DNA of 64,000 bases from Halobellus salinus (GTDB lineage Archaea > Halobacteriota > Halobacteria > Halobacteriales > Haloferacaceae): NCBI RefSeq assembly GCF_014646875.1, contig NZ_BMOC01000002.1:1-64000 (forward strand). The letters are read 5' to 3'. Numbering within the stretch: the first letter of the stretch is position 1; every line of letters starts with the position of its first letter. Positions 51,539 to 55,636 of this stretch are shown here, piece by piece. Under the pieces are notes generated by a model. It was not told the DNA's origin, did no database searches, and saw only the letters and a list, made by a program, of their open reading frames with translations. The position numbers were made by a program, and so were the translations under genes.

Positions 51539-52234
51539 TTACCGCATGTTGGTCGGCCGTGTCGGTTCGTCGGCGGTTCCCGGCTTTTCGCCGGGCGCGG
51601 TCGGCTGGTTGCCGCGGGCCAGCGCCGTGTAGCCCGTCCGCGCGATCTCGATGATGCCGAACTGCCGGAACGCGTCGATCGCGTCGTCGATCTCCTGTTC
51701 GTCTCCCGTGAGTTGCACGGTGATCGTCTCGGCGCCCGCATCAAGGGTCTGACCGTCGTACATCTCGGTGATCGCGTGCACCTTGTCCGGCTCCCCGCCC
51801 TCGACTTTCAGGAGGACAAGTTCGGTCCGCACCGCGTCGGCGTCGAGTTCACCGACGGTGATGACAGGTTTGAGTTTTCCGAGTTGCTTTTTGATCTGGT
51901 CGATGTCGGGTTCGGTCTCCTCGACGACCATCGTGATCCGTGAGTGCCCGTCCACGGTGGTTGGGCCGACGGTGAGGCTCTCGATGTTGAACTGTCGCCG
52001 GGAGATCAGGCCCGCGATCCGCGAGAGCACGCCGGGTTCGTCCTCCACCAGCGCGGAGAACACCGCGCGCCGCGGCTCGTGCTGGGCCTCGACCTCGGGG
52101 TCGATCCGGATCCCCTGTGCGTTCCGCCGCCCCTGGGGGTGAGGCCGCTCGTTGGGCTCCGGTCCGGCGAGTCCGTGTTTGGGTGGCCCCTCGCGTCCTC
52201 CCCGTCCGGCTTCGGTGTCGTCGCCCGAACTCAT
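51539..52234 (-). CDS. ilvN: Acetolactate synthase regulatory subunit
   Basis: The 231-residue protein has an N-terminal ACT domain for branched-chain feedback ([33 protein letters not shown], about residues 57-90) and the second ferredoxin-like half ([25 protein letters not shown]). The first 50 residues are a charged leader without homology and the last 20 are Pro/Thr-rich. It binds IlvB and confers valine sensitivity. Its start overlaps the ilvB stop by four bases. Confidence 0.92.
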
Positions 52235-54039
52235 AGCTGGTCCTCCGTGAGGGCGAACTTGCCGTTCGCGCCGCCCGAGGCAACCATTGGGTAGACGTTT
52301 TCAGCGGGATCGATGTGGAAATCGATCACCGACGGGCCGTCGTAGGCGAGCGCCTCCTCGACGGTGTCTGTGACCTCGTCGTAGTCGTCAACCCGCCACC
52401 CGCGGGCGCCGAACGCCTCCGCGAGCATATCGAACTCCGGACACCAGTTGTACTCCGCGGCCATGCGCCGGCCCTCGAAGAAGGCGTCCTGCCACTGCCG
52501 GACCATCCCGATGTACTCGTTGTTGAGCACCGCAACGGTGATGTCCAGCTCCTCACGCACCGCGACCGACAGCGACTGGATAGTCATGAGAAACGACCCG
52601 TCGCCGTCGATGCAGACGACCTCTTGGTCGGCGGCGGCGGCGATCCGGGCGCCGATTGCGGCGGGGAGTCCGTAGCCCATCGTGCCGAGACCGTGGCTCG
52701 ACACCCAGGTGCGTGGCTCCGTGTACGTCCAGTACTGCGACGCCCACATCTGGTGCTGGCCGACGCCGGTTGTGACGATGGTGTCGTCGGCGGTGGCCTC
52801 GTCGAGCACCTCCACGACGAACTGCGGCTTCAGCGGCTCGTCGTCGGGAGTGGCGTAGTCCATCGGATACTCGGCTTTCCAGGTCTGACACTGCTCGCGC
52901 CACTCGTCGACGTCTGGCGCCTCGTCGACAGCGTCGTCGACCTGGCCGAGCACGGTCCCCGCGTCGCCGATCAACGGGTAGTCCGCGTGAACGTTCTTCG
53001 AGATCTCCGCGGGATCGATGTCGATGTGGATCACCTCCGCTTCCGGTGCGAAGGTGTCGATGCCGCCGGTCAGTCGGTCGTCGAACCGGGTGCCGACCGC
53101 GATCAGCAGGTCGGTGTGGGTGATCGCCATGTTTGCGTATCCTGTGCCGTGCATCCCTGCCCACGACAGACACAGGTCGTCGTCTTCCGGGAACGACCCG
53201 ATCCCGGGCATCGTGGTGACGACCGGGATCTCGTGATCGCGCGCGAATGCCCGCGCCTCCTCGGTGGCGTCAGCCTTGATCACGCCGCCGCCGAACAACA
53301 GCAGCGGGCGGTCGGCCGACTCGATCGCGTCGGCGGCGACCGCGACGTTCGCCTCGTCGGCGATGTACTGCGGTCGGGTGGTCTCGGGCGGTTCGGCCGG
53401 TCCCGGTTCCCTGTCGGTATCTGCGAGGGTGGTGTCTTTCGGGAGGTCGACAAGCGTGGGCCCGGGCCGTCCCTCGTCGGCCAGCGCCAGCGCCTCTCCG
53501 ACGGTGTCACCCACGCTGTCGGGATCGTCGGCGAAGTAGTTGTGCTTCGTGAGCGGCGCGGTCACGCCGGTGGTGTCGGTTTCCTGGAACGCGTCGGAGC
53601 CAACCATGTCCGACGGGACCTGGCCGGTCAACGCCAACATCCCGTCGGAGTCCATGTTCGCGTCGGCAATCCCGGTCACCAGGTTGGTTGCGCCGGGGCC
53701 CGACGTGGCTAAACAGACTCCCGGCTCGTTCCGAACCACGCCGAACGCGTCGGCGGCGTGTGCGGCGCCCTGCTCGTGCGCCATAACGATGTGCCGGATA
53801 TCGGAGTGGTACAGCGCGTCGTAGACGGGCATGATCGCGCCGCCCTGGACGCCGAAGGCGGCCTCGATGCCGGCGTTCTCCAGCGCGTGGACCACGGACT
53901 CGGCGCCAGTGGTCGCTGGAGTGTAGTCCGCCTCCGCGTCGGCTCCGGTGGCCTGCTCCGCGGCGGCTTCGGTGGCCTGCTCCGCGTCGGTTCCGGGCTC
54001 CGGGTCTGCGTCCTCGTCGGGCGTCGCCTGTTTGCTCAT
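52231..54039 (-). CDS. ilvB: Acetolactate synthase catalytic subunit
   Basis: This ThDP- and FAD-dependent enzyme condenses two pyruvates (or pyruvate and 2-oxobutyrate), the first common branched-chain step. The 602-residue chain has the N-terminal Pyr domain with the catalytic Glu in VMAHEQGAAHAADAFG. The FAD domain follows, then the ThDP motif GDGSFLMTIQSLSVAVREELDITVAVLNN. Residues 1-42 are an Ala/Glu/Asp repeat-like acidic leader. A leader-peptide ORF with rare Val codons lies 167 bases upstream. It overlaps ilvN by four bases (ATGA). Confidence 0.95.
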   Translation of the reverse strand: MSKQATPDEDADPEPGTDAEQATEAAAEQATGADAEADYTPATTGAESVVHALENAGIEAAFGVQGGAIMPVYDALYHSDIRHIVMAHEQGAAHAADAFGVVRNEPGVCLATSGPGATNLVTGIADANMDSDGMLALTGQVPSDMVGSDAFQETDTTGVTAPLTKHNYFADDPDSVGDTVGEALALADEGRPGPTLVDLPKDTTLADTDREPGPAEPPETTRPQYIADEANVAVAADAIESADRPLLLFGGGVIKADATEEARAFARDHEIPVVTTMPGIGSFPEDDDLCLSWAGMHGTGYANMAITHTDLLIAVGTRFDDRLTGGIDTFAPEAEVIHIDIDPAEISKNVHADYPLIGDAGTVLGQVDDAVDEAPDVDEWREQCQTWKAEYPMDYATPDDEPLKPQFVVEVLDEATADDTIVTTGVGQHQMWASQYWTYTEPRTWVSSHGLGTMGYGLPAAIGARIAAAADQEVVCIDGDGSFLMTIQSLSVAVREELDITVAVLNNEYIGMVRQWQDAFFEGRRMAAEYNWCPEFDMLAEAFGARGWRVDDYDEVTDTVEEALAYDGPSVIDFHIDPAENVYPMVASGGANGKFALTEDQL

Positions 54040-54194
54040 CGCCGGTCACCTCCGGTTCGGGCTGTCCGGTTCGTCGCGGTCTGGGGGCGGTGCGTCGGTG
54101 TCGGTCGTGCGGATCTGGCGTAGTGGGTCATACTGGGTGGCGGTGTCGTGGTCGGTCGGACGTCGATCGACGGTCGGGACGGCGAGAAATGGGT

Positions 54195-54223
54195 GTAGTG
54201 GGGGGCTATACGGCCCCTACTAC
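54195..54223 (-). promoter_or_regulatory. Hairpin spanning the end of the ilvB leader ORF
   Basis: The minus strand folds as GTAGT-A-GGGGC, loop CGTATA, GCCCC-CC-ACTAC. The hairpin includes the last Val codons and the TAG stop of the leader peptide. A ribosome stalled on the Val codons would melt it. No clear U-tract terminator follows. Confidence 0.5.
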
Positions 54224-54328
54224 GACACGAATCGGGGTGCTCCGGTACTCGGGGCGCGACCGCGGCAGCGACGCGGTTCGGGACCCAGCGGGGGCGCCCG
54301 TCGCGTCGGTTCGCCGGTGTCGCGTCAT
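54206..54328 (-). CDS. Candidate ilvB leader peptide (attenuator)
   Basis: This 40-codon frame starts at ATG 54328 and ends TAG at 54206, 167 bases before ilvB. Its last codons read ACC CCG ATT CGT GTC GTA GTA GGG GCC GTA TAG (Thr-Pro-Ile-Arg-Val-Val-Val-Gly-Ala-Val). They use ATT and GTA, codons avoided in the GC-rich neighbours. A weak TATA-like TTCATTA lies about 24-30 bases before the ATG, so the transcript may start leaderless. Position, branched-chain content, rare codons and an overlapping hairpin fit a translation-coupled attenuator. Expression is not shown. Confidence 0.5.
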   Translation of the reverse strand: MTRHRRTDATGAPAGSRTASLPRSRPEYRSTPIRVVVGAV

Positions 54329-54436
54329 ACCTGATGGGTCTCGCTCGTCCGTAATGAACGTTTCGTGGTCCGTCGCCGGGACGGGGTCTGCGGCGCGCCC
54401 GTGGCCCGGTGGACCGAGCACCCGGCGCGCGCGCCA

Positions 54437-55636
54437 TCAGGCGTTGCCCTCCCCGTCGTCGTCGGCGCGATCGACGCCGACGTCGCGGGCGAACCCGGTC
54501 AGCGCGTCGACGGTGACCCGCTCCTTCTCGGCGCCGTAGTCTTTCACCAGACGGGTGACCTCGCGTACCTCCGCGTCGGTGGGTGCGAAGCCGGATTCGA
54601 CCAGTCGCTTCCGGACCGAGTGGGTCCCGGTGTGTTTCCCGAGGACGAACTCGCGTTGCGCACCAACCATGTCGGGGGTCATCACACCCGGCTCGAACGT
54701 GTCGGAGTTCTCGATGACGCCCGCGGCGTGGATCCCGCTCTCGTGGGAGAAGGCGTTCCGACCGACAACCGGCTTGTTGCCGGGGACCGGAATGTCGCTG
54801 GCCTCCTCGACGATCCGCGAGAGCTCGGTGATCCGGGTGGTGTCGATCCCGGTGTCGACGTCGTACAGCGACTCCGCCGCCGTGACGACCTCCTCGAAGG
54901 CGGCGTTGCCGGCGCGCTCGCCGATACCGTTGACCGACACCTGCGCCTGCGACGCGCCGGCCTCGAAGCCGGCCATGGCGTTGGCCGCCGCGAGCCCGAA
55001 GTCGTCGTGGGCGTGGACGTCGATCTCGGCGTCGGTGAACGTCCGGATCTCTTTGACGAGGTTCGCGAACCGGGTCGGCGTCCCCACGCCGGTGGTGTCG
55101 GGGATGTTGACCCAGTCGACACCCGCCTCGTCGACGGCGCTCAGGATCTCCGCCAGGAAGTCCACGTCGGTCCGGGTGGCGTCCATGGGCGAGAACATCA
55201 CCTCGACGCCCGCCTCCTTCACGCGCTCGACGCACTCGACCGCGCGGTCGACGGCCTCCTGCTTGGAGGCGTGCATCGAGTCCGCCAACTGGACGTCGCT
55301 GGTGGACACGAAGACGTGGACTAGTTCGACGCCGGAGTCGAGGGCGGCCTCGACGTCCTTGTCGACGACACGTGCCAGCCCGCAGACGGTGGTGTCGGTC
55401 GCGGCTGCGATGTCGCTCACGGACTCGAACTCGGCCTCGGAGTTGACCGGGAACCCCGCCTCGATGACGTGGGTTCCCATCTCGTCCAGTGTGGCCGCGA
55501 TGCTACGCTTCTCGTCGTAGCTGAACGATGTACGTGGCGACTGTTCGCCGTCGCGGAGCGTGGTGTCGAAAATCCGTACGTTGTCGATCTCGGATTCAGT
55601 AATGTGGGCTAGTGTGCCCTGGAAGAACTCGACCAG
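54437..55636 (-). CDS. leuA: 2-isopropylmalate synthase (possibly citramalate synthase), unclear start
   Basis: The first committed enzyme of leucine synthesis condenses acetyl-CoA with 2-oxoisovalerate. DTTLRDGEQSPRTSFSYDEKR with its metal-binding Asp, the HAHDDFGLAAANAMAGFEAGA metal-binding HxH, and NGIGERAGNAAFEEVV are hallmarks. GKHTGTHSVRK follows. The chain lacks most of the LeuA regulatory C-terminal domain, as is usual for the archaeal group that also contains citramalate synthase (CimA). The frame has no ATG or GTG before the conserved VEFFQGTL; the CTG at 55636 is set provisionally. An ATG at 55673 opens a different frame. Confidence 0.8.
   Translation of the reverse strand: MVEFFQGTLAHITESEIDNVRIFDTTLRDGEQSPRTSFSYDEKRSIAATLDEMGTHVIEAGFPVNSEAEFESVSDIAAATDTTVCGLARVVDKDVEAALDSGVELVHVFVSTSDVQLADSMHASKQEAVDRAVECVERVKEAGVEVMFSPMDATRTDVDFLAEILSAVDEAGVDWVNIPDTTGVGTPTRFANLVKEIRTFTDAEIDVHAHDDFGLAAANAMAGFEAGASQAQVSVNGIGERAGNAAFEEVVTAAESLYDVDTGIDTTRITELSRIVEEASDIPVPGNKPVVGRNAFSHESGIHAAGVIENSDTFEPGVMTPDMVGAQREFVLGKHTGTHSVRKRLVESGFAPTDAEVREVTRLVKDYGAEKERVTVDALTGFARDVGVDRADDDGEGNA

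Follow-up and report, generated by a model that had tools for sequence, protein, structure and literature searches.

A candidate ribosome-mediated attenuator upstream of ilvB and valS in haloarchaea

Leader-peptide attenuation is a textbook bacterial mechanism. In the enterobacterial ivbL, ilvL, leuL and trpL attenuators the leader peptide carries codons for the regulated amino acid, some of them rare (CUA in leuL), and competing antiterminator and terminator hairpins are followed by a U-run. The E. coli pheM leader, located before pheST, is a classical bacterial attenuator of an aminoacyl-tRNA synthetase gene. In tnaC, a ribosome at the end of the leader ORF masks the adjacent RNA from Rho, blocking termination, and free tryptophan is sensed via the nascent peptide. 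Ribosome stalling at the E. coli tnaC leader has been described (PMC8429421). The Corynebacterium ilvBNC leader, or ilvB-II motif, features a conserved uORF implicated in operon regulation, and a three-hairpin model is available for it (PMC10272879, PMC11857589). As for archaea, FttA shows a preference for U-rich RNA, and the authors put forward the hypothesis that it competes sterically with the ribosome (PMC11616081). T stretches act as terminators in vivo in Haloferax volcanii, where 59% termination was measured for one tested hairpin; the terminators described, T stretches and some hairpins, are found at gene ends or within genes, and the word 'attenuation' is absent (PMC7237163). A literature search for leader-peptide attenuation in archaea found no description, most subscription papers being outside the search.

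A short ORF (uORF1) whose stop codon lies in a hairpin is found upstream of ilvB in the window, i.e. the whole stretch of 64,000 nucleotides of Halobellus salinus DNA that was analysed. The region is best explained as a ribosome-mediated attenuator, in which stalling at Ile/Val codons would mask the hairpin and permit ilvB expression, and hairpin formation would pause or terminate RNA polymerase; a probability of about 0.7 is given to this reading. Its features are the following.

52231..54039, minus strand: ilvB, acetolactate synthase large subunit (TIGR00118), the presumed controlled gene
54036..54131, minus strand: uORF2, MTHYARSARPTPTHRPQTATNRTARTGGDRR and stop, its TGA overlapping the ilvB start (ATGA)
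54046..54053, minus strand: Shine-Dalgarno-like GGAGGTGA before ilvB, within uORF2, as read from the sequence
54184..54190, minus strand: pyrimidine/T tract ATTTCTC, about 11 nt 3' of the hairpin
54195..54223, minus strand: extended 10-bp hairpin GTAGT-A-GGGGC(CGTATA)GCCCC-CC-ACTAC, from the minimum-energy fold of the window leader
54202..54217, minus strand: core hairpin GGGGC(CGTATA)GCCCC, with the stop TAG at 54208-54206, supported by the fold, by covariation at pair 5 and by the valS leaders at pairs 3-4
54206..54328, minus strand: uORF1, leader peptide MTRHRRTDATGAPAGSRTASLPRSRPEYRSTPIRVVVGAV and stop, 40 codons, predicted to be leaderless, with the transcript start at about 54328-54331
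54218..54232, minus strand: sensor codons ATT CGT GTC GTA GTA (Ile-Arg-Val-Val-Val), from codon statistics of ilvB leaders
54352..54365, minus strand: BRE/TATA-like promoter element CGAAACG-TTCATTA, read from the sequence, a similar AT-rich element being found in relatives

The 40-codon minus-strand frame with an Ile/Val-rich end, pointed out in the earlier note, is found in sequence and translation exactly as claimed (54206-54328). Its 3' codons are ATT CGT GTC GTA GTA GGG GCC GTA TAG, and GTA, one of the codons described there as largely avoided, accounts for 1.1% of the Val codons of 117 ilvB genes. A TATA-like element had been placed at about -27; TTCATTA (54358-54352) indeed lies about 27-30 nt 5' of the uORF1 ATG, preceded by the BRE-like CGAAACG, and relatives likewise have an AT-rich element some 30 nt 5' of the ATG. 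The 3' end of leuA, a gene named from C-terminal sequence and context only, is located at about 54437, so the promoter and the leader lie in the leuA-ilvB gap. ilvB starts at 54039, 166 nt after the uORF1 stop (167 bases in the earlier note). The predicted hairpin of 10 paired bases, enclosing the last codons and the stop, is recovered in the minimum-energy fold at 54195-54223, and its outer pairs are not kept in all relatives. The arrangement is more than a chance product: when the two strands of the window were scanned for ATG ORFs that follow a promoter and have their stop in a hairpin loop closed by a GC-rich stem of 5 bp, two places were returned, the uORF1 site and an unremarkable one. 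The pattern GTAGGGGN{3,8}TARN{0,3}CCCC occurs at a single place in the entire Halobellus salinus genome.

Like the Corynebacterium ilvBNC leader, the haloarchaeal leader features a conserved uORF before ilvB; unlike this bacterial leader, modelled with three hairpins, it has one stop-holding hairpin, no second structure and, as predicted, a leaderless archaeal mRNA. With the enterobacterial attenuators it shares a leader peptide including codons, some rare, for the regulated amino acid. A leader-peptide attenuator is expected to have an upstream short ORF with codons for the amino acid of the downstream gene, which is the case here if translation is judged from sequence, and sensor codons placed for a stalled ribosome to mask a hairpin arm; this also holds, GTA directly preceding the 5' arm (masking is inferred from position). 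It should also have mutually exclusive antiterminator and terminator hairpins, and this the haloarchaeal leader does not: folding of the leaders gave a single hairpin only, with no antiterminator partner or competing hairpins. The module is hence treated as a variant, not a member, of the bacterial attenuator class, and the 'remodelling' of the hairpin imagined in the earlier note is better understood as masking, as no alternative antiterminator structure was found. Like pheM, the leaders located before valS precede an aminoacyl-tRNA synthetase gene, but the haloarchaeal module is common to both ilvB and valS. As in tnaC, a ribosome at the end of the leader ORF would mask adjacent RNA, blocking termination; unlike tnaC, which involves free tryptophan, the nascent peptide and Rho, sensing looks codon-based. 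Archaea use FttA/aCPSF1 (PMC11616081). That these leaders make up an undescribed archaeal attenuation system for ilvB and valS, in which a single stop-in-loop hairpin is masked directly by the ribosome, without competing hairpins, and translation is coupled to archaeal termination, is a proposal towards which the balance inclines, though not heavily. Occurrence of the module in nearly all sampled haloarchaeal genera, together with the Val-only control provided by valS, offers a direct and cheap test of transcription-translation coupling in archaeal gene regulation, and also of the response of archaeal termination to a stalled ribosome.

ilvB loci were gathered from 60 relatives and from named genomes. 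In this unselected survey GTAGGGG, a stop and the CCCC arm were found in 79 of 81 distinct ilvB loci with upstream sequence. In one exception, L139 of a low-GC family, the sequence varies to GTAGGTGCTTAGCGCGCC and the stem compensates for this; the other, L131 (genome G024), lacks the module before ilvB, but G024 has it before valS. The module fits the consensus (Ile/Val)-Val(GTA)-Gly-(Ala/Val)(-x)-stop. Its stop codon is enclosed by a GGGGY...RCCCC hairpin, and 10-12 nt 3' of this hairpin a T-rich tract is found. The final set includes 117 distinct ilvB leaders and 32 valS leaders; in these the final GTA is invariant by construction, and counts derive from related genomes sharing ancestry, and are not independent events. 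Carriers include Halobellus, Haloquadratum, Haloplanus, Salinigranum, Halorubrum, Halonotius, Halohasta, Halogeometricum, Halomicrobium, Halorussus, Halorarius and Haloglomus. Class-wide, the module pattern has matches in 379 of 391 genomes and, at genus level, in 82 of 86. A reversed control pattern yields about one match per strand per genome; the class tally is therefore only supporting, and weight is put on loci before ilvB and valS. In other classes of the phylum, matches were found only at control level. The L283 candidate (genome G423, another class) was rejected as a terminator look-alike, being an ordinary gene-end hairpin, GTAGGGGCTTGCTAGCCCC, with a long T tract. The leader is absent in the deep-branching families f9 and f11 (L140, L141, L142), where ilvB adjoins leuA. 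Lack of conservation in relatives had been set beforehand as a refuting result; frame, Ile/Val codons, stop and hairpin are all kept across the haloarchaea sampled. The Val run proposed as sensor holds for the window and its nearest relative, L002, where Val replaces Ile before the final GTA and an Ile codon is found slightly earlier, but not for most species, where the sensor is Ile-Val.

Translation of uORF1 is suggested by reading-frame bias. The best promoter-preceded ATG is in the GTA frame in 103/107 ilvB leaders and 15/17 valS leaders, and an open frame with ATG is found in the GTA frame in 106 of 108 ilvB leaders, versus 2 and 46 in the other frames. The stop codons TAG, TAA and TGA are all used, and in almost every leader the distance from Gly to the stop is one or two codons. 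The peptide upstream of the module is variable. On these grounds, and in the absence of ribosome data, uORF1 is judged to be a conserved, translated short ORF.

The codon preceding GTA differs according to the downstream gene. In the 117 ilvB leaders it encodes Ile 108 times (Val 3, Phe 3, Leu 1, Met 1, Ser 1), in the 32 valS leaders never (Val 13, Arg 10, Phe 5, Pro 3, Glu 1; Fisher P 9.6e-25), and after thinning of the ilvB leaders to <70% identity Ile is still found in 67/74. A further Val occurs within the three preceding codons in 29/32 valS leaders. Rare codons are favoured: ATT makes up 75% of the Ile codons before GTA in ilvB leaders vs 11% in ilvB genes, and GTA 54% of the Val codons among the last nine of valS leaders, vs 1.1% in background ilvB genes. 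Among the final nine codons 45% encode branched-chain residues, compared with 12% further 5'. The valS leaders came to light because the motif occurs a second time in several genomes, and the gene that follows this second copy was identified by TIGR00422/NF009687, with scores far above the valine--tRNA ligase cut-offs; the Val-only version of the module is found before valS in several families. Sensing of Ile/Val codons is strongly supported by these codon statistics, and codon identity, as far as the compared leaders tell, is matched to the downstream gene, Ile-Val for ilvB and Val for valS. The regulon found comprises ilvB and valS and, in a few genomes, a paralogue of ilvB (L176). The same hairpin preceded by non-GTA codons was found at background level only (9 places in 97 genomes; 3 in 194 genomes, one of them lying on the strand opposite to an ilvB site and another belonging to a disrupted valS leader), so no general all-amino-acid device of this form was found. 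No comparable leader was detected in the ileS upstream regions of about 29 genomes.

The stability of the full 289-nt window leader is ordinary (z -0.87). The local 34-nt hairpin starting from GTA is more stable than shuffled sequences (mean z -3.7, family average), and is included in the predicted fold of 105/113 leaders. At pair 5, which joins the bases that follow GGGG and precede CCCC, C-G is found 107 times, T-A 12 and T-G 9, and A is never opposite C (Fisher 1e-11). The choice of Ala or Val after Gly can accordingly be ascribed to base pairing at this position, and not to sensing. Six valS leaders (L254, L255, L256, L258, L259, L260) have swapped arms, GGCCCC...GGGGCC, the stop being still inside the hairpin; the swapped-arm form is rare, as the pattern GGCCCCNNNTAGGGSCC was not found in any of 97 class genomes. 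Backed by covariation, the leader hairpin is taken as genuine.

These data bear on two readings differing from codon sensing. The C-terminal V-G-A/P/V and the stop might form an arrest peptide, sensing free Ile/Val or the release step rather than the supply of charged tRNA. Val-Gly is retained in the leaders with swapped arms, where the Gly codon is GGC, but this is weak support, as Val-Gly was a selection criterion of that set. The residue after Gly tracks base pairing rather than the chemistry of the peptide, the one before Val varies by gene (Ile in ilvB; Val, Arg, Phe or Pro in valS), and the recurring feature of an otherwise variable peptide is the rare codons; an arrest peptide is thus improbable. 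Alternatively, the GGGG/CCCC dyad, whose GTAGGGG core is invariant in nearly all ilvB leaders, could be a DNA operator or an RNA site for a regulatory protein, the reading frame being incidental. A single protein is not expected to tolerate the swapping of half-sites seen in some valS leaders, and frame, stop codons and amino-acid choice are all constrained, with pairing covarying with the stop codon. Such a site seems very hard to credit.

The first TTY peaks 10-12 nt after CCCC in the leader family, and T is about 33% in the tract vs about 10-12% further 3'. By inference, at this spacing of 10-12 nt the hairpin would have just emerged from RNA polymerase. Where the bacterial attenuator class has a U-run after the terminator, the tract here is T-enriched but short and interspersed with C, unlike strong archaeal U-run terminators. 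No second structured element was found in the 60 nt 3' of the hairpin (mean z +0.36, leader family), and a covariance-model search of the Rfam families, any ilvB leader motifs among them included, with the window interval 53500-55000, at E up to 10, gave no relevant match.

In the attenuator model the mRNA would start, leaderless, at the uORF1 ATG, and ribosomes would meet rare Ile (ATT) and Val (GTA) codons directly 5' of the stop-in-loop hairpin. When charged Ile- and Val-tRNAs are ample, the ribosome would complete uORF1 and depart, and the hairpin would fold as RNA polymerase arrives at the T-rich tract 10-16 nt 3', causing a pause or termination, either intrinsic or via FttA/aCPSF1, and low ilvB expression. 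When Ile or Val is scarce, the stalled ribosome would sit over the 5' hairpin arm, letting transcription proceed into uORF2 and ilvB. A Val-only version would control valS. Starvation should raise expression, an inference from the controlled genes being biosynthetic and tRNA-charging. Stalling, termination as output, direction of the response and role of uORF2 are all inferred, no expression, termination or ribosome data being available. Against the model, the hairpin would likewise be covered by a ribosome positioned on the stop codon, which makes fast release a requirement, and the window has Val instead of Ile before GTA. With these limits, the leader-peptide attenuator of the earlier note finds support in the conserved frame, codons, stop and hairpin and in the Val-only version before valS, regulation itself being inferred.

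The main rival is translational control. A ribosome stalled or terminating at uORF1 could set re-initiation at uORF2, ATGA-coupled to ilvB, without transcription termination. An open ATG in the uORF2 frame overlapping the ilvB start is found in 63/91 relatives, vs 9 and 1 in the other frames; the uORF2 start is fairly fixed, mostly 65-80 nt after uORF1, and the window has the Shine-Dalgarno-like sequence before ilvB. Yet uORF2 is missing in 13/17 valS leaders examined, which have the same hairpin and codons, and the conserved T tract 3' of the hairpin is left unexplained. Control through uORF2 is thus possible, but rather unlikely. In the window uORF2 is C/A-rich, and its peptide is rich in Thr, Pro, Arg and His.

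An ilvB paralogue with its own leader is found in L167 and L176, the L176 peptide ending in SPVFVGAA before the stop. Protein matches distinguish two types of haloarchaeal ValS, about 62-94% and about 37-42% identical to L177 ValS, respectively. The leaders examined go with the first type, and most f1 genomes having the first type lack the leader. The valS leader region of L319 (genome G131) is split just before the hairpin; the intervening sequence, whose ends are inverted (CAGGGCGGACGTAA...TTACGTCCGCCCTG), may be an insertion or an assembly artefact. In the leaders with swapped arms, the Val-Gly-x-stop reading is retained, Val-Gly having been used to select the set.
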